From a virus, in the IMG/VR virus record IMGVR_UViG_3300042922_000347, positions 1 to 24,143 of that record: 24,143 nt of DNA. The stretch is one strand, 5' to 3'. The notes under the pieces were generated by a model. The model worked only from the letters and a program-made list of their open reading frames with translations. It ran no database searches and was not told the origin of the DNA. Each line of letters begins with the position of its first letter. Position 1 is the first letter of the stretch. Made by a program: the position numbers and the translations under genes. Below, piece after piece: positions 160 through 19,602 of the stretch.

Positions 160-183
160 AAAGCCCCGGCAATTAAGCCGGGG
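160..183 (-). terminator. Terminator closing the late/lysis operon (possibly bidirectional)
   Basis: A perfect 7-bp GC stem (CCCCGGC / GCCGGGG) with a 6-base AATTAA loop lies at 164-183. On the minus strand it is followed by CTTTTCTATTT, a typical U-tract. It begins 7 bases after the stop of the last lysis gene (191). On the plus strand it follows the 34-aa gene, but the T-tract there is weaker (TTATGTT). Confidence 0.85.
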
Positions 184-190
184 TTATGTT

Positions 191-625
191 CTACCTATTT
201 ACAGCAAGATAGCCTATACCTGCCACAAGAAAAGCACGCTGCACTTTAAGCCATCTAATTTCCAGTTTTGTTTCTTTGCTTAATTTGTTCAACGATTCGT
301 TTGCCTTCTGCAATGAGGCTTGCGCTGTCGTTAGATTGGTCTTTGCTGCTGTCGATTCGTCTTTCAGTGCCAGCAATTGTATCTGCAATCTTGCCAAGTC
401 CTGTTGATACTCTTCCAGACTCAGCCGCGCTTGTGTCAAGTCCTGTTTTGATTGTGTCAAGTCGTTGAGCAGCTTGTTGTTGTTGATCTCCAGCTGATTG
501 AATATTATCTCTAACCTGGTCAACTCTTGCTCGTCCACCGAATAGGCCTGGGCCGAACATGTAGCAAACGACACACAGACAAACAGCAAGGACAATATAA
601 ATGATCGTTTTAGCGTTTGGTACAA
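191..625 (-). CDS. Nested spanin-like protein (candidate o- or u-spanin)
   Basis: A 144-aa ORF starts with TTG at 625, with an AAAGGGG ribosome binding site 10 bases upstream. It lies in a different frame from the overlapping 126-aa ORF (255-635) and shares 371 bp with it. It has a clear signal peptide (basic KR, hydrophobic core at about residues 9-20, SAQA-Y as a possible signal peptidase I site). Residues about 35-120 form a long Leu/Gln-rich coiled coil, followed by a short hydrophobic tail (AFLVAGIGYLAV). A Cys follows FAT near the end of the signal, but that is a poor lipobox. Position after holin and amidase, exported topology and nesting match Rz1-type spanins; the hydrophobic C-terminus also recalls unimolecular spanins. 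The role is inferred from topology and order, not from sequence homology. Confidence 0.6.
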   Translation of the reverse strand: MYQTLKRSFILSLLFVCVSFATCSAQAYSVDEQELTRLEIIFNQLEINNNKLLNDLTQSKQDLTQARLSLEEYQQDLARLQIQLLALKDESTAAKTNLTTAQASLQKANESLNKLSKETKLEIRWLKVQRAFLVAGIGYLAVNR

Positions 626-635
626 TTGGAATCAT
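255..635 (-). CDS. Rz-like inner-membrane spanin candidate
   Basis: This 126-aa ORF begins with an ATG overlapping the amidase stop (ATGA), which suggests translational coupling. Residues about 10-32 are one strong transmembrane segment (IIYIVLAVCLCVVCYMFG). The remainder is hydrophilic, Gln/Asp/Ser-rich and compatible with a periplasmic coiled coil, the N-in/C-out arrangement of an i-spanin such as lambda Rz. Almost its whole length is overlapped by the other-frame ORF at 191-625, and both ORFs look like genuine proteins. In phages of outer-membrane hosts such pairs bridge and fuse the two membranes in the last lysis step. The order holin - endolysin - this pair - terminator supports the call. 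A general structural coiled-coil protein is the alternative. Confidence 0.65.
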   Translation of the reverse strand: MIPIVPNAKTIIYIVLAVCLCVVCYMFGPGLFGGRARVDQVRDNIQSAGDQQQQAAQRLDTIKTGLDTSAAESGRVSTGLGKIADTIAGTERRIDSSKDQSNDSASLIAEGKRIVEQIKQRNKTGN

Positions 636-1309
636 CCCCTTTCACTCATCCTATTTCTTAATCCAGCATCTGACCAATCTTCGCGCGATTCTATCGGTTG
701 TGGCGGCTGCTCCTGTGGCGCTTGTATTTCGTCTGTGTGCGTATTTTCTGGCTCTTTGGTAGTTATGCCTAGGTAAGATTTAACCCCCTTCCAAATGGCG
801 ACTGCTGCGTTATATTGGAAGTTGTGATCTGCGAGTAATTGCTCTTCTTCCGGATTAGATATAAACGCCAATTCAACCAGTGCTGCCGGCGCATATGTAT
901 AGCGAATAACAAAGTAGTTAGCCATGCGAACGCCGCGGTCTTTGCGTCCTAGTTCTGCAAGGAGCTCACGTTGAATGTGTTGTGCTAGATCCATGCCGGC
1001 GGCAGATCCCGGGAAATGCCAAGTCTCTGTGCCTTCTGGTGCCGGCGTACTAAATGAATTACAGTGGATGCTAACAAACACGTCTGCACCGAAATTATTG
1101 CTCATGTTAACGATGTTTTTTAGATCGTCATTTGATGCATCTGTGCGTTCTGTGCGCGTAAGTAACACCTCATGCCCTTCTGTTCCTGCCATATTTGCAA
1201 GGAGCTCACTTACTGCAAGTGCTACATCAGACTCGTAAAGCCCCGTGGGACCAACGGCCCCTGGATCTATCGTTATACCGGCATGCCCGGGATTTATGCA
1301 AAGCTTCAC
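632..1309 (-). CDS. N-acetylmuramoyl-L-alanine amidase endolysin (Amidase_3)
   Basis: This 225-aa endolysin should cleave the amide bond between N-acetylmuramic acid and L-alanine in peptidoglycan. The Amidase_3 zinc-site residues are visible: His9 in NPGHAG, Glu26 in LYES and His82 in SIHCNS, with catalytic Glu146 in VELAFISN. The catalytic domain fills residues 1-180. The remaining 45 residues are a Pro/Glu/Gln-rich tail with no recognisable cell-wall-binding repeat. Single-domain endolysins of this kind are usual in phages of outer-membrane hosts. There is no signal peptide, so it should depend on the adjacent holin for release. The GTG start overlaps the holin stop (GTGA) and the ORF's stop overlaps the spanin-like ATG. 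Confidence 0.93.
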   Translation of the reverse strand: MKLCINPGHAGITIDPGAVGPTGLYESDVALAVSELLANMAGTEGHEVLLTRTERTDASNDDLKNIVNMSNNFGADVFVSIHCNSFSTPAPEGTETWHFPGSAAGMDLAQHIQRELLAELGRKDRGVRMANYFVIRYTYAPAALVELAFISNPEEEQLLADHNFQYNAAVAIWKGVKSYLGITTKEPENTHTDEIQAPQEQPPQPIESREDWSDAGLRNRMSERG

Positions 1310-1911
1310 GGTTGTTTCCCTTCTTCCACTTGAATTATCTCTTCTGCCTTTTGTGTTACTTGGGAAGTTAGCGGGAGCCCCGCCTTTTTCTCGTAATATT
1401 TATTGACAACAAAAGCAAATACTCTATATAACGGATTGCGCGAAGCTTTCAAATTCCTTGCTATGCTTTTCATCTCAGTCATTACAATATAAATAAGCAG
1501 TGCATATGCAATTTCATTAAACATATAAGCTTCAACAGACTTAAAAAGCTTCAGCAAGCCGCCGGCAAGCAACATCATTACAAAATAGTAACCTACTTTT
1601 GGAAAAAACTTTTTACGCATGGGCTCATCGTCAAAGACATCGTGCGTCCATGCTGCTATAAATCCGACAAAAGGCCACTTGCTATTTGGCGCATATTCTC
1701 GCCTTGCTTGATAGCATAGCGCGTTTAGTTTCGCCCATAGATCAAATAACACAACCGCGGCAATAAATAAAGATGGTTGCCAGATGTCGCTGAAGAAAAA
1801 CCCAAAAAATAAGCCAAGAACAGTTTTAATTTGCCAGTTTTCCAACAATCTATTGAAAACTTTGCACCATTCAGACACGGTATCGCATGATCTTTCGATA
1901 ATAATTAACAC
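1306..1911 (-). CDS. Phage holin (phage_holin_4 / toxin-secretion holin type)
   Basis: A 201-aa membrane protein with hydrophobic segments at about residues 29-60 (two closely spaced, LGLFFGFFF and LFIAAVVLF) and 105-145 (YYFVMMLLAGGLL and IAYALLIYIVM). It ends in a charged cytoplasmic-type tail (EEIIQVEEGKQP). Segment pattern and position directly before the amidase identify it as the holin that permeabilises the inner membrane. It is longer than the usual 130-150 residues of this family because of extra N- and C-terminal extensions. Translation probably starts at GTG 1911, nine bases after AGGAG. An ATG TGT TAA mini-frame lies one base before the GTG and is better spaced, which might lower holin expression. 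A terminator upstream separates it from the ejection genes. Confidence 0.85.
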   Translation of the reverse strand: MLIIIERSCDTVSEWCKVFNRLLENWQIKTVLGLFFGFFFSDIWQPSLFIAAVVLFDLWAKLNALCYQARREYAPNSKWPFVGFIAAWTHDVFDDEPMRKKFFPKVGYYFVMMLLAGGLLKLFKSVEAYMFNEIAYALLIYIVMTEMKSIARNLKASRNPLYRVFAFVVNKYYEKKAGLPLTSQVTQKAEEIIQVEEGKQP

Positions 1912-6717: not shown

Positions 6718-7863
6718 TTAATCACGCCCCTTTACGGCAAACCCGTCAGCAAAGTAAACATTAGCGCCTGTACATTTGAAGTCATATACCAGTTCTTTAG
6801 GCTGTCCACCTTGAACAGAGATAACTTCTTCTGTTTTGTCTATGCCAACAAGCTTTTTACCTTGCAATTGATGCGGCAATAAATACCCTTCAGTGGTCAT
6901 AAAAGGTTGTGTAGAAGTTGGCCTAATTTGCGCTGTTTTTGTCTTTATGAGCATATAGTCGTTAGGGGATATAAAAGGCTCTTGTAGCTCAATTACGGAC
7001 TCTACAGAGCCATTAAGCGAATACACTTTATCGCCTATTTTAATGTCTTCTATGTTTTTGTATCCGTCAGGTGTGGCTATTTTAGTTCCAGCAACAAAAC
7101 ACATTATCGCTGCTGATCCAATACTACCAAGTGCGCTCCAGGCTCCAGAATTGCCACCGCCACTTTGTGTTGTGGTTGATCCGCCAGTTCCCATACGCCC
7201 GTTATAGAGAGTATTGAATAGGTTTTGTCCTGCTCCAAGGCTATTATTTGCATAGTTGAATAGTTGATTAGGAGTATAATAGCTGTTTTGCTGTGCTTGT
7301 GCAGACGTGTTAAGTTGATTTGCTGCGTTATTGGCTGTATTGCCAAGGATGTTGGCGTAGTTGTTCATATCAGTTGAATAGCTAGCGTTAAGCGAATCTG
7401 CTGCTTTTTTACCAATGCTATCAAATGCCGTATCTTGCGATGAACTATTTATAATTCCGCGGCTTGCAAGGTTGTTTATTGCGTTGCCAAACGTGCCGGT
7501 AAGGTCATTTGTCAATGTCGCTTTTCTTGCATCGCTATAAGCTGTCGGCAGGTTTCCGCTCAACAAGTTTCCGTAGCCACTGTTTACGCCGTTCATTGTG
7601 TCCGTATAGCCGCCAAACGCCTTGTTCCAATCAAGATTGATTACTTTCCCTAGCGCAGAATTGGCTTGGTTCTGGTAATTTGTTGCGTTGTTAAGTCCGG
7701 TTGTACCGTAGTTAAACAAGCCGGTCTGCAATGCAGCCTCTTGCGCTGTTTGTGCAGGTATATTTCGAGTAGTTGTCTGTGTCTGTCCACCGCCTTTAAA
7801 CCGTACATGACGCATGCTAGGCAATCCGGAGCAATCAGACCATGTTTGTTTTCCTTGCATCAT
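6718..7863 (-). CDS. Virion protein with C-terminal degenerate Hint domain
   Basis: Residues 1-250 are an Asn/Gln/Ser/Gly-rich helical region typical of small ejection or tail-associated proteins. A Hint (Hedgehog/intein) module starts at Cys255 (CFVAGTKIATPDGYKNIEDI, block A) and runs to the C-terminus. Block B reads TSTQPF, where active inteins have TxxHPF. Block F-like sequence is VYDFKCTGANVYFADGF, and the end is VKGRD instead of a terminal His-Asn. The key His and Asn of splicing are therefore absent, so self-splicing is unlikely; Cys255 could still make a thioester. SD AAGGAGG serves either of two adjacent ATGs (7863, 7860) and overlaps the preceding gene's stop. By position it is the gp7-like member of the ejection set. 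Confidence 0.7.
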   Translation of the reverse strand: MMQGKQTWSDCSGLPSMRHVRFKGGGQTQTTTRNIPAQTAQEAALQTGLFNYGTTGLNNATNYQNQANSALGKVINLDWNKAFGGYTDTMNGVNSGYGNLLSGNLPTAYSDARKATLTNDLTGTFGNAINNLASRGIINSSSQDTAFDSIGKKAADSLNASYSTDMNNYANILGNTANNAANQLNTSAQAQQNSYYTPNQLFNYANNSLGAGQNLFNTLYNGRMGTGGSTTTQSGGGNSGAWSALGSIGSAAIMCFVAGTKIATPDGYKNIEDIKIGDKVYSLNGSVESVIELQEPFISPNDYMLIKTKTAQIRPTSTQPFMTTEGYLLPHQLQGKKLVGIDKTEEVISVQGGQPKELVYDFKCTGANVYFADGFAVKGRD

Positions 7864-8201: not shown

Positions 8202-9877
8202 TAACTTTGCCACACATCAAACGCCCACGGAACGCTCGCCGGATCTATCGCAGATGTTGTTACGTTAGCAACTCTGAGCTTTACTGTGTTAGTAGCAGAA
8301 ACATATGCGTTCCAAGTTAATCCGGCCTCTAAAGATTCTGGAGTAGCAATTACTAAGTCTCTTAATACTGCTCCTGTGATTGTTACCGTTAACTCTGCCG
8401 TGGAATTTGCAGGAATAGATGGAAAATTAAGGCTTGACTCTGCGTGTAGTCTAGCGGTTATGGGAAAAGATGTAGCGGGACCAACGTCAAGGCCATCAGC
8501 TTGAAGAATCAATTTACCTGAATTATTATGTTTTATTATTGCGCGTACCGGCGTACTGCTGCTGCCTTCGTATGTTATTTCCAAATCTTTTGTGCTGGAA
8601 TTTTGCACAAACCTATAATATCCAAGGGCGGTAGGATCTTCTATTATTAGGTCTTTGAATACAATCTGAGATTTTATAAAAGTTGGGTGGCCTGTTATCT
8701 GTTGCGCTCTGCCAGTAATGTAATTTCCCGTTCCGTTGTCAACTATATTATCAGATATGCTGTTGCGATAGCCAAATACTGTATTATAAAAAGATCCGGA
8801 CTCTAGAACTATTTCTCCGCTCGTTCCGCTTGTATTATCTTCTGTGTATGGATTAATAAAACAGTTTCCTTTTGCTCCTGATTTTATCCTTATGCCAATT
8901 CCATCGTTACTTTGGCTTACCACGCCAATAAAAGTATTATCAAAACAATTCTCCAAGCACAAACCATCAAGAGCATTGTCTCTCGAATCTAACCCTAAAA
9001 GATATCCAGCGTTGGCATTAGGCAATGGCGATCCTGTTCCGCTGTTTATATATACTCCATTTCCTCCATTCCCCAACGTAATTACATCTTGCAAGCGCCA
9101 TGCATTCACACTGCTACCGGTTAAATCGCCCACCTGGATACCGTGGCTTCCGTGGCTTGTTGCAGTTACTTTTCGCGCGTAGCTTCTTCCACCAATTAAA
9201 GATAATCCAAGTCCACCATTACCGGGAGCGCCGTCAATGATAAGGTTTTCTGCTCCTGCATTAACGTCTGATACGACAATTCCGGTAAAATTTCCGACCT
9301 TATATAGTCTTGTTGTTCCACCATCGCCTACATTAGTTCCAAATCCATCACCTAATAGTTGAACATTTTTAGTTATCGTTATACTATTATTTATCCAATA
9401 CATACCCCTTGGCGTTTTTGCAACACCACCACCACCATCATGAACAAAGTTTATCGCTTTTTGGATTACAGCCCAATCCATTTCATCTGTTAAATTGTTT
9501 GCATGCGGATAAACCGCTTGAGCTTCTACCAATGTTGAAAAACGCGTTGATAATGGTGTGCTTACTCCGGCAGGAGCTATTTGTGGCGGGAGATAAAATG
9601 CTCTAACATCAACATGAGGGCCTTTTGTTATAAAATCAGCGCTTTTTACTGTCCCGGAATAGTCAGAAAGAGCGGGAAGCATTGCATCGTCAGCTAATCC
9701 GTCAGTCCCTATTTTTGCGCCGTCACTACCGCTTCCGCTATGACCGTGTCCGTCTGATGCCATTAACCCAGATTGTATTTGATATAGCCTCTTTGTTTCA
9801 TTGTCAGTATTCTTTAAAACCTCTTGTGTTTGTTGCGTAGGACTAAATGTGTTCGGGAATGCTTGACTCCAACTCAA
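8201..9877 (-). CDS. Tail spike / receptor-binding protein with right-handed beta-helix
   Basis: A 558-aa protein with a TTG start and GGAGG eight bases upstream. The N-terminal 60 residues (including DGHGHSGSGSDG) look like a virion-attachment head of the type found in Firmicutes phages. From about residue 88 (VDVRAFYL) to about 400 the sequence has the short-turn Gly/Asn-rich repeats of a pectate-lyase-like beta-helix: an entry segment (AINFVHDGGGGVAKTPRGMYWI) followed by rungs such as NGVYINSGTG and DGLCLENCFDNTFIGV. The C-terminal 100 residues are a beta-rich domain ending DVWQS. It probably binds and may degrade a surface polysaccharide; active-site residues cannot be named. It follows the tail hub gene. 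Confidence 0.85.
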   Translation of the reverse strand: MSWSQAFPNTFSPTQQTQEVLKNTDNETKRLYQIQSGLMASDGHGHSGSGSDGAKIGTDGLADDAMLPALSDYSGTVKSADFITKGPHVDVRAFYLPPQIAPAGVSTPLSTRFSTLVEAQAVYPHANNLTDEMDWAVIQKAINFVHDGGGGVAKTPRGMYWINNSITITKNVQLLGDGFGTNVGDGGTTRLYKVGNFTGIVVSDVNAGAENLIIDGAPGNGGLGLSLIGGRSYARKVTATSHGSHGIQVGDLTGSSVNAWRLQDVITLGNGGNGVYINSGTGSPLPNANAGYLLGLDSRDNALDGLCLENCFDNTFIGVVSQSNDGIGIRIKSGAKGNCFINPYTEDNTSGTSGEIVLESGSFYNTVFGYRNSISDNIVDNGTGNYITGRAQQITGHPTFIKSQIVFKDLIIEDPTALGYYRFVQNSSTKDLEITYEGSSSTPVRAIIKHNNSGKLILQADGLDVGPATSFPITARLHAESSLNFPSIPANSTAELTVTITGAVLRDLVIATPESLEAGLTWNAYVSATNTVKLRVANVTTSAIDPASVPWAFDVWQS

Positions 9878-9890
9878 AAATACAACCTCC

Positions 9891-11333
9891 TTATTGCCCT
9901 GTTTCTACAACAAGGACTACTATATCTCTAACTGCCAACCGTCCTTCATTTACCGTTAAAATAACTTGAATATCTCTGCTACGTTTGCGCGTTCTCTTCC
10001 TAAAAACAGAAAACTCTTCGTAAGGAGTTACCGGATCAGTATCTGTATCTGCTATGTCATAATCGGTATCCGCTATATCACCAACCGAATTAAAAGTAAT
10101 AGGGAAATACTTGTTGCCAACCTTCAGCACATAATTACCATTGGTGAAGTTATAGGTAACAAACTTAACTCGTTTCATCACGTACTTTTTACTTGTTGGA
10201 ATGTACCTTTTTGTGCTAAGAGTGGCGAAGAACGCTTGTCCATCATCTGTGTAAACGTCTTCAACAAGCTTAGCTATCTTTGTACCATAAGCAATATAAA
10301 CGTCATTGCCTTTAACAACAACGTCATTTATCGGATACCGAAATTGCCGTTTACTCCACGCGTTAAGGCCGTAATGATAGATCAATATCTCATTTTGATT
10401 GCTTGTCTTGCACCACACTTGTTTTCGCGGGGTTACATGCCATACTCTCGCATTGTTCGCGTTATTGACAACATACCAGCCGTTGATCATATAGCCTGGC
10501 GCAGGATCGTCAACACGAACCGAACCATAGGCATCCGTTGTGCTGAAACTGTTAAAACCTTCCGGACCAATAAAATAAGCCTTGTTCATAAGAGCAAGGC
10601 CGCTGTAGTGGTTAATTGCACCGGATCTTTGCGCTGCCGGTACGACTGCTATATTGCTAAAATTGTTTTCGTTAAGGATTCGGTATACAGAACCGTTTGT
10701 TTTAATTACAATGCTGTCAGTAGCAAGCTTGATCGTACACGCTATTTGGCTTGCATCCTTATAGCCAACTTCTACATACTGACTACTTGATATGTCAGAT
10801 GGATTGTTAACCCATCCTGCATAATCGCCAATTGCGCTGTAATTCTTTACGTCAGATAGGATGTTGATTGCTTCAACCCTGCCGTTGTTATGCGCTACCC
10901 AGTGTGACAGCGGACTACCGGATACAGTTGCAAGAGTTGTACCGCTAGTTATCTTTTGTATCTGTCCACCGCTTGCCACTAGCACAACAGAGTCGTATAA
11001 TGCGTAGATTGGCCTGTAAGCACCCGTTAATGTTCCTAACAATGTTTTAGTCGAAAGGTCTGTACTGTACAAGCTGGTGCCTGTTGAGCAGTACCAAATG
11101 TCATGAACTTCATCATAAAAGAGCGTTTCTGCATCGGTTGTCATATCATACTGGCTAACCACACCAGGGCAAACCTGTGGCTGATTTAGCAAGGTTCCGT
11201 ATTCCCAGTTATCAAATTGGCTAAGCGTTCCCTCTGGTATGCTCTCTGGGTTCGCTATGAGGCACAGACCGCCCATAATGTTCTGCATAGATATAGTGAA
11301 TTGTGCAGGTGTTTTTGTGCTTTGTACGGGCAT
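9891..11333 (-). CDS. Tail hub / DNA-stabilisation protein, P22 gp10-like by size and position
   Basis: 480 aa, with ATG preceded by AAGGGGG at 8 bases. The N-terminus (about residues 16-45, MGGLCLIANPESIPEGTLSQ then DNWE and TLLNQPQV) has the loop seen in phage stabilisation proteins, in which a list of solution values is drawn from a propeller. The body (residues 60-340) is beta-rich with repeated aromatic turns (WYCSTGTSLY, RIWH/VWHV, NAWSKRQF), consistent with a beta-propeller. Length is close to P22 gp10 (472 aa) and it lies between adaptor/completion genes and the spike, as expected for a hub closing the DNA exit channel. Homology is inferred rather than demonstrated. Confidence 0.65.
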   Translation of the reverse strand: MPVQSTKTPAQFTISMQNIMGGLCLIANPESIPEGTLSQFDNWEYGTLLNQPQVCPGVVSQYDMTTDAETLFYDEVHDIWYCSTGTSLYSTDLSTKTLLGTLTGAYRPIYALYDSVVLVASGGQIQKITSGTTLATVSGSPLSHWVAHNNGRVEAINILSDVKNYSAIGDYAGWVNNPSDISSSQYVEVGYKDASQIACTIKLATDSIVIKTNGSVYRILNENNFSNIAVVPAAQRSGAINHYSGLALMNKAYFIGPEGFNSFSTTDAYGSVRVDDPAPGYMINGWYVVNNANNARVWHVTPRKQVWCKTSNQNEILIYHYGLNAWSKRQFRYPINDVVVKGNDVYIAYGTKIAKLVEDVYTDDGQAFFATLSTKRYIPTSKKYVMKRVKFVTYNFTNGNYVLKVGNKYFPITFNSVGDIADTDYDIADTDTDPVTPYEEFSVFRKRTRKRSRDIQVILTVNEGRLAVRDIVVLVVETGQ

Positions 11334-18116: not shown

Positions 18117-18307
18117 TTGCTATCACCTTCTATCTCATCATCATAAATATTGTCAAACTTATAACCAAGCTTGCGCAGCAATGGCCTTATTTTATCCCAT
18201 TCCCGATATTGCTCTCCATGCTCATGCATCTTGTAAGCAACTTCAGCAATTTCAAGCAATAGGATTTTAACCTCTTCATCCGTCAAATCGATTAACCTGT
18301 CATCCAT
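18113..18307 (-). CDS. Small acidic helical protein overlapping terL end (64 aa)
   Basis: ATG at 18307 lies inside the last codons of the large terminase gene (15-base overlap), with GGAGG close upstream. The protein is acidic (DLTDEEVKILLLEIAEVAYKM, ending DDEIEGDSK) and mostly helical. No family recognised. Overlap at both ends and good codon pattern support it as translated. Confidence 0.6.
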   Translation of the reverse strand: MDDRLIDLTDEEVKILLLEIAEVAYKMHEHGEQYREWDKIRPLLRKLGYKFDNIYDDEIEGDSK

Positions 18308-19602
18308 GATCCTCCATCATCCTCCCTTTGCCTGTCATATCTGTCGTAGTCTTTCGGCTTAGCCGGTTCTGCTTGTTTCTCTCTCCAGTAAACCATCTCC
18401 AACTCATTAGCATACCTGCATGCATCTATTAAATGGTTGTTCCTGTCAACAGGTTTAGGCAGCTGGTCGCCATGCTTGTCCTCTTCCCACTTATACGAAG
18501 AAAACTCATTCTTAGCATTCTGACAACGTATGTCAACAATAATTTCTTGTTGTTGCATCCATTGAATACCATAGTTTACGCTGTCCTTCCCTTTTATCGC
18601 CTCTACTGCTGTTATACCGCGCTGTGCGAGTTCCATTATGCTCTTAGGCTCTGCGCTGTCACATCGTATTGCTTCGCGCCCTATAAGCGGTTTAAGCGAT
18701 TTTGCTAGATCATCATTTGTTAAACCGCGCTCGTATATCTCATCAAGTATATATAGGCGGTTGTGCTTGCGGTCGTAGTGCGTTCGTATTGCTGCTGCCG
18801 GATCACTTGCGAAGCCGAAGTCGAGGCCATTGTTAAACGTAGAAAACGTATGCTTGATGCTAGACAAGTCTTCAACTTTCCAGTTCTTAAAGATTACTCC
18901 ACCAATAACTCCCCAGTTACCCAACGTGTATACGTTATAGAAGTAAGGGTCTTTTTCATTTTCTAACTGATAAATGTCTTCCGGTGACAAAAACTTATTG
19001 TCTTTGTATGTGGTCTTAACGATCAGCAGGGTATCATCGCGGTACACATTCTTGCTGTCGTCCCACCCACCAAAATACTCTTGATATATCCAATGTTGCT
19101 GCAAGATAGGATTAAACAACAATATTACTCTTTTCTTTACCTTAGAAAGACCTCTAAGGCGTTTGTACAGTTGCTTAACCACGGCATAATCAGTTTCAGT
19201 AGCTTCTTCAACAATTATGTCTGTTATTACACCCTTTGAAGGCGTAATGGACTTTATCTTTTCAACATCATCAAGCCCTGCAAACAATATCTGGTAACCA
19301 TTGGTACACGTAATAACTAAATCTGACTTGTTAATAGAGAAAAGATTATTAACCTTAAAAAAACTAATCGCCTTTGTTATTTCGTTAAACACAGACTTTC
19401 TTATTGTTAGCTGTACATTGCGCGTTACAAGGTAGTTATGACCGCCTTTTAGCATGTCCAGCACTGTTCTTTGTCCGACAATAGCGTATGACTTGCCGGA
19501 AGAAGATCCACCAAAAAATATCTGCGTATACGTTTCGTCGTTCAGATAAGGAAAGTACGCATCGTTAAACACCTTTTTGTTTATGTTTAGGTTAATCGCC
19601 AT
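18292..19602 (-). CDS. terL: Terminase large subunit, PBSX type
   Basis: 436 aa; the ATPase-nuclease motor that pumps and cuts DNA during packaging. Walker A is GGSSSGKS (residues 31-38), Walker B is DIIVEEAT (128-135, with catalytic Glu), and a motif III-like LLFNP occurs at 161-165. The RNase H-like nuclease domain starts at about residue 255, with Asp261 in GLDFGFASDP, a second acidic site in RCDSAEPKS and the last in HLIDACRYA. Motifs are complete, so it should be active. The ATG follows the 75-aa gene's stop by two bases with only a weak ribosome binding site (GAGG), suggesting coupling. The C-terminus overlaps the next gene. Confidence 0.94.
   Translation of the reverse strand: MAINLNINKKVFNDAYFPYLNDETYTQIFFGGSSSGKSYAIVGQRTVLDMLKGGHNYLVTRNVQLTIRKSVFNEITKAISFFKVNNLFSINKSDLVITCTNGYQILFAGLDDVEKIKSITPSKGVITDIIVEEATETDYAVVKQLYKRLRGLSKVKKRVILLFNPILQQHWIYQEYFGGWDDSKNVYRDDTLLIVKTTYKDNKFLSPEDIYQLENEKDPYFYNVYTLGNWGVIGGVIFKNWKVEDLSSIKHTFSTFNNGLDFGFASDPAAAIRTHYDRKHNRLYILDEIYERGLTNDDLAKSLKPLIGREAIRCDSAEPKSIMELAQRGITAVEAIKGKDSVNYGIQWMQQQEIIVDIRCQNAKNEFSSYKWEEDKHGDQLPKPVDRNNHLIDACRYANELEMVYWREKQAEPAKPKDYDRYDRQREDDGGSWMTG

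Follow-up and report, generated by a model that had tools for sequence, protein, structure and literature searches.

Two overlapping reading frames at the end of a lysis cassette

Two long open reading frames occupy almost the same stretch of DNA at the end of a phage lysis cassette, which raises the questions of whether both are genes and, if they are, whether their products could form a spanin-like pair in a phage of a Firmicute. The window, by which we mean the whole stretch of DNA that was analysed, is the entire 24,143-base IMG/VR record IMGVR_UViG_3300042922_000347. On its minus strand, an i-like gene (255..635, ATG start) encodes 126 residues and an o-like gene (191..625, TTG start) encodes 144 residues in the +1 frame relative to the i-like gene. 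The first-pass annotation had described frames of these lengths sharing 371 bp, and they were found where it placed them. It had also called them fully nested, which is slightly inaccurate, since the 126-residue gene begins 10 nt earlier, at a start codon of its own, and the 144-residue gene extends 64 nt further. A single Shine-Dalgarno-like AAAGGGG is followed by the ATG of the i frame (635) and the TTG of the o frame (625), all within 623..643 (minus strand). The DNA for the i-like transmembrane (TM) helix (i residues 11-32; 540..605, minus strand) also encodes most of the o-like signal peptide region (MYQTLKRSFILSLLFVCVSFATCSAQ; 548..625, minus strand), and the membrane signals of both proteins thus come from the same DNA. 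The C-terminal hydrophobic tail of the o-like protein (AFLVAGIGYLAVNR; 194..235, minus strand) is encoded past the end of the i-like gene.

The placement of the pair behind a holin and a single-domain amidase and ahead of a terminator, also claimed earlier, was borne out. In order along the minus strand, the cassette comprises a probable holin (1306..1911), supported by a weak match to Phage_holin_4_1 that is below cut-off (PF05105, E 0.02); an endolysin that is a single-domain N-acetylmuramoyl-L-alanine amidase (Amidase_3; 632..1309; PF01520, E 5.5e-44), the stop of which overlaps the i-like start; the pair itself; and an intrinsic terminator-like hairpin (164..183, minus strand), which is present in the nearest relative, L003, too. 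Across the family, an amidase or a GH25 lysozyme lies upstream of the pair in at least 41 of 61 loci, and a separate holin-like gene is found in several cassettes, the window among them. In L003 an extra small membrane-protein gene (~9660-9980) separates the amidase from the pair; the window has no such gene.

Both frames are retained and constrained

We assembled 68 complete homologous loci, made up of 60 fetched matches to a profile of the o-like protein and loci found earlier, and took 20 further divergent copies with an i profile, mainly ones that had escaped the o profile. In 68/68 complete loci the two frames are open and keep the same phase. The i frame is open across the whole o gene (317-401 nt) in all 60 fetched o-profile matches, and the third frame of the same 60 is open for merely about 50-210 nt. 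Among the divergent copies, both frames are open in 19 of 20 and both proteins are intact in 18. Relatives preserving only one frame would have refuted the original proposal; no intact relative of this kind occurs among the copies read (68 complete loci and 20 divergent ones), and the single divergent copy in which the frames are not both open is broken. Two individual copies deserve mention: L158 (G118:C80) is a broken copy of the pair, and L161 (G324:C34) has both frames open with an odd o N-terminus and is probably decaying.

When the codons of the o gene of the window were permuted synonymously, the i frame stayed open in 0.27% of trials; with random synonymous codons it was open in 0 of 10,000. 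Between the window and L003, the overlap differs at 16 of 371 nt (4.3%), compared with 127 of 678 (18.7%) in the adjacent amidase gene, and in the o-only tail region 8 of 64 nt differ, 7 of them at third positions. We also examined substitutions in 13 equal-length related pairs, some of which share members, so that the P values are approximate. Changes silent in o never produced a stop in i (0/231, versus 9.8% expected), and the i replacements that they caused were conservative (mean BLOSUM +0.73 versus -0.60 expected; P < 1/5000). Conversely, 159 changes silent in i gave o replacements with a mean BLOSUM of +0.19, versus -1.23 expected (P < 1/5000). On this comparative evidence, the i and o frames are both under purifying selection.

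The notion that a single frame is the gene, with the other a by-product of its codon bias, can draw only on the reverse permutation test, i to o, which gave P 0.06 for the window and is non-significant on its own in some loci. It retains virtually no credibility against the openness of both frames in every complete locus, the selection seen on either frame once the other is taken into account, and the conservation of the o tail, which lies past the i stop. The N-terminal membrane signals, which are distinct in the two frames, also speak against it, for either one exceeds in hydrophobicity what the amino acids of the other frame would lead one to expect (median P about 0.04 for the i TM helix and about 0.03 for the o signal peptide). 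Chance occurrence of the second frame was rejected on the codon-permutation tests, the 68/68 open loci and the constraint on either frame.

The unusual start geometry is shared by the family, in which start codons were assigned by rule. The i and o start codons are usually no more than 16 nt apart; in 58/68 loci a canonical i start codon is found at most 22 nt from that of o, most commonly 4 or 10 nt before it, and the o gene ends 34-85 nt past the end of the i gene. In 63/68 loci a Shine-Dalgarno-like motif is present in the 28 nt that precede the o start. In about 10 loci (L015, L013 and L056 among those named) the i frame lacks an ATG, GTG or TTG close to the ribosome-binding site that the two genes share, and several of these show the sequence AUUG, in which an AUU in the i frame overlaps a UUG in the o frame; this is unexplained. 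Overall, the pair represents an extreme case of dual coding, with about 365 nt specifying a membrane-targeting signal and a long helix in each of two frames, kept class-wide.

A detector of same-start nested pairs was run on the survey loci, on their opposite strands and on selected phages. It recovered 67/67 survey loci and returned nothing on the opposite strands (318 kb), nor in two Marinitoga phages (one record partial), cyanophage P-SSP7 or the lambda lysis region. This sample is small, and absence from other diderms without a Lol pathway is not shown.

Relatives in Negativicutes and the probable host

The closest viral contig, L003, shares 94% and 90% protein identity with the pair of the window. 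The only match among phage GenBank records (INPHARED) is an unannotated human-gut scaffold, MT836582, which bears the same pair; no annotated relative was found there. The profile of the 144-residue protein reaches more viral contigs and, within Negativicutes, a Sporomusaceae MAG and Acidaminococcus fermentans. Of 381 Negativicutes genomes, 87 are matched at E <= 1e-5 by the o profile and 118 by the i profile, which was built from the other frame; the weakest of these matches include generic coiled-coil proteins. By the profile of either frame, the family is present in about a quarter of these genomes. In a phylum-wide sample of 399 genomes, full-length matches (E 1e-13 or better) occur solely in genomes already listed as Negativicutes; the other matches are at E 1e-10 or weaker, and none of the 7 that were inspected has a nested frame, all being generic coiled coils.

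The window capsid has relatives in 29 Negativicutes genomes, at up to 54% identity, and in a Sporomusaceae genome a capsid relative and the pair lie on one contig. Because of these two observations, a Negativicutes host for the phage is, as inferred from homology, very likely. The first-pass annotation had predicted a diderm Firmicute, and the homologues in Sporomusaceae and Acidaminococcus agree with that prediction. A monoderm host was rejected, as the homologues sit in outer-membrane-bearing Negativicutes.

In bacterial genomes the family is carried by prophages whose activity is unknown. A single Negativicutes genome may hold as many as four copies of the pair at different places (G086 and G322; loci L067, L068 and L070-L072), presumably representing several prophages.

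Predicted features of the two proteins

The N-terminal TM helix of the i-like protein has, across the family, an uncharged run of median 20.5 residues. Hydropathy and the AF2 model of the window protein (helices 8-27 and 37-125, mean pLDDT 77) agree with the earlier description of one N-terminal TM helix and an Rz-like coil. It weakly matches PHROG 18860 (2e-6) and the Rz-like spanin PHROG 89 (0.008); matches of other members to Rz-like PHROGs are scattered, with best E values for Rz families of about 3e-4 to 8e-3, and the o protein and generic coiled coils give comparably weak matches. In the C-terminal region of the i protein, 32/68 loci have a Cys within a CxxI motif (e.g., DCQRIL), and Cys occurs in the o coils in 5/68. 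By analogy with known spanins, an i-i disulfide through the CxxI Cys is possible.

The signal peptide, coil and short hydrophobic tail attributed to the 144-residue protein were confirmed in the window. Signal peptides and tails were called by simple hydropathy, without dedicated predictors. The o protein carries a Sec-type signal peptide, the exit of which shows a small-x-Ala motif in 63/68 loci. Directly after it comes a conserved YxITExELTxLE segment; a second conserved region reads LxxANxSLxxYEKExK. In the AF2 model of the window protein (mean pLDDT 90), helices span residues 2-23 and 32-143, and DSSP assigns 32-143 to a single helix of 112 residues. The tail comprises 11-16 hydrophobic residues (median 12, versus 20.5 for the i TM run), and the terminal residue is K or R in 62/68 loci. 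The AF2 models were made from smaller alignments with one row excluded; as single chains forming single helices, they are uninformative on pairing.

Database searches add little to these assignments. PDB profile searches with the pair returned generic coiled coils alone, and the Pfam and NCBIfam matches of the two proteins are coil-driven. Weak matches to TIGR04211, an SH3-and-anchor family, occur in 46/63 members, the window o protein scoring 17.8 against a cut-off of 65 bits. Members of TIGR04211 resemble the o protein in having a signal peptide, a coil and a C-terminal anchor, but the window protein is far under the cut-off, has no SH3 domain and lies in a phage lysis context. The coil similarity may be generic.

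What was noted originally for the outer partner in the window, the absence of a good lipobox and a hydrophobic C-terminal end, is true of the whole family: no strict lipobox was found near the o signal-peptide exit in any of the 68 loci, and a relaxed one occurs in 3. A classical lipoprotein o-spanin was rejected on this basis. A Cys is nonetheless present near the exit in 40/68 loci, mostly as GTC or GIC, which leaves open a lipobox of non-canonical form in some of the members. The o protein could accordingly be a lipoprotein with an odd signal (GTC, GIC, AGSC), and the system a divergent form of the classical overlapping spanin; unusual lipoboxes such as AWAC can function (PMC6139136). This reading appears to us improbable, since 28/68 loci have no Cys at the exit, the residue at -1 is mostly T, I or L, the FATC of the window is likewise not canonical, and no Lol pathway is reported in the hosts.

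Comparison with known spanins

Like lambda Rz/Rz1, and the overlapped type represented by P2 LysB/LysC, the pair stands at the end of a holin-endolysin cassette. It also resembles Rz/Rz1 in having its second frame at +1 and in combining an inner-membrane protein with an N-terminal TM helix and a coil with an exported partner. In contrast to Rz1, which is a lipoprotein, the Negativicutes o protein is not one; it is predicted to form a continuous helix with a C-terminal hydrophobic tail, and is usually longer than its i partner. Its start is at nearly the same nucleotide as that of i, whereas the o genes of embedded spanins start 0.4-0.5 of the way into the i gene (PMC6139136). The Negativicutes pair further differs from Rz/Rz1 in that both membrane signals derive from the same DNA and in that the host class is without Lol. 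Unimolecular spanins, exemplified by T1 gp11, share with the o protein a C-terminal hydrophobic anchor behind a periplasmic domain; the o protein, however, has no lipobox, is all-helical rather than beta-rich, has a tail of just 11-16 residues and is always partnered with an i-like protein in the other frame.

Of the properties that define the Rz/Rz1 type, the pair has the holin/endolysin neighbourhood and an i protein with an N-terminal TM helix and a periplasmic helix, but neither a lipoprotein o-spanin nor an o start at about 0.4-0.5 of the i gene. It also fails the requirements of a u-spanin, namely an N-terminal lipobox with a C-terminal TMD and a beta-rich periplasmic domain. By strict membership, then, it is neither an Rz/Rz1-type two-component spanin nor a u-spanin.

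Catalogued o- and u-spanins were chosen by lipobox (PMC12596118, PMC6139136), and Kongari et al. (PMC6139136) noted that their criteria would overlook spanins with different anchors. The same 2018 survey lists many "spanin-less" phages, including phages of cyanobacteria and Thermus (Terrabacteria), and according to a 2025 survey (PMC12596118) phages of Gram-positives have no spanins. We found no published description of spanins in Negativicutes phages; subscription journals were mostly outside the search, and an unseen description is possible.

A spanin-like reading without a lipid anchor

We consider it likely that the pair is a two-component, lipidation-independent spanin-like system by which Negativicutes phages disrupt the outer membrane; its function, the pairing of the proteins and the membrane of the tail are inferred, without any experiment. 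The inference of spanin-like function rests on the cassette position, on one rod in the inner membrane and another that is exported and has a second anchor, on the restriction to outer-membrane-bearing hosts and on the +1 overlap. Thus the earlier proposal of a spanin-like pair of non-classic type stands as to dual coding, cassette and absence of a lipobox, while a functional spanin and an outer-membrane role of the 144-residue protein are still inferences. In the proposed mechanism, the 126-residue protein would sit N-in in the inner membrane by one TM helix and extend a long helix into the periplasm. The 144-residue protein would be exported by Sec and probably cleaved by signal peptidase I, leaving an approximately 112-residue helix, which would measure about 17 nm when straight, anchored by the short hydrophobic tail and not by lipid. 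Once the holin had opened the inner membrane and the amidase had stripped the wall, the two long helices would pair and draw the membranes together, as proposed for Rz/Rz1.

The hosts offer a context for the missing lipobox. Negativicutes have an outer membrane, and genome surveys find them without LolA or LolB (PMC5007114, PMC10665443, PMC5491611, PMC11784454); outer-membrane lipoproteins are unproven in the class, with none shown in Veillonella (PMC5007114, PMC10665443, PMC5491611), and diderm Terrabacteria are reported to be without Lol and outer-membrane lipoproteins (review, PMC11784454). LolA is present in Halanaerobiales. The missing lipobox fits such hosts, and because no Lol pathway is reported in them, a lipoprotein o-spanin would probably fail to reach the outer membrane.

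An alternative, which we regard as unlikely though slightly less so than the odd lipobox, is that the two proteins are accessories to the holin at the inner membrane, either XhlA-like or antiholins, and do not disrupt the outer one. Coil-bearing membrane proteins are common in holin modules, and single members of the family weakly match "holin" or "hemolysin" PHROGs. The separate holin-like genes of the window and several other cassettes argue otherwise, as do the o export signal with its exit motif and the restriction of full-length family matches, in the phylum sample, to an outer-membrane-bearing class.

The membrane that holds the o tail is the least certain part of the spanin-like reading. 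If the pair is spanin-like, we infer a location in the outer membrane with a little less than even confidence, the inner membrane being somewhat less favoured and another arrangement less again. The outer membrane is preferred because the 11-16 residues are much shorter than the 20-residue TM of the partner and because no Lol was found in Negativicutes. Helical outer-membrane anchors are rare, and this counts against it. By default, moreover, a protein that is exported by Sec and has a hydrophobic tail at its C-terminus would halt in the inner membrane as a type I protein, and both partners could sit there. The corresponding rival, a serious possibility albeit one that we doubt, is a spanin-like system with both proteins anchored in the inner membrane, the 144-residue protein being type I (N-out, C-in) and reaching an outer-membrane or wall component through YxITExELTxLE. 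The signal peptide, C-terminal hydrophobic stretch and terminal K/R follow the usual type I stop-transfer pattern; the conserved motif stands immediately after the signal peptide; the weak similarity to TIGR04211 hints at the same topology; and type I anchors are the case that Kongari et al. (PMC6139136) name as missed by their criteria. Against it stands the tail, which is short for crossing the inner membrane.

A bolder picture, which we offer tentatively, is a lipid-independent class of disruptor in which a helical rod, exported by Sec and held by its tail in the outer membrane, pairs with an inner-membrane rod made from the same DNA and ribosome-binding site (apparently with overlapping AUU/UUG starts in some loci). 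If the lipidation-independent reading is true, the pair would dispense with the lipid anchor common to all described phage systems of its kind. The family is a concrete candidate for how phages break the outer membrane of a diderm host without Lol, and genetic work is described as feasible in the Negativicute Veillonella parvula, which makes the question testable.

Other features of the window genome

The window encodes a P22-type portal, a Phage_capsid_3 capsid and Terminase_3, by which its genome looks podovirus-like. The terminase large subunit (18292-19602, minus strand) is closest to those of Marinitoga (Thermotogota) viruses, with 57% identity; set beside the P22/Phage_capsid_3-type portal and capsid, this similarity suggests a mosaic genome. 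A 381-residue virion-like protein (6718-7863, minus strand) has a C-terminal third, beginning CFVAGTKIATPDGYKNIEDIKIGDKVYS, that resembles a Hint/intein-type domain, which is unusual for a phage structural protein.
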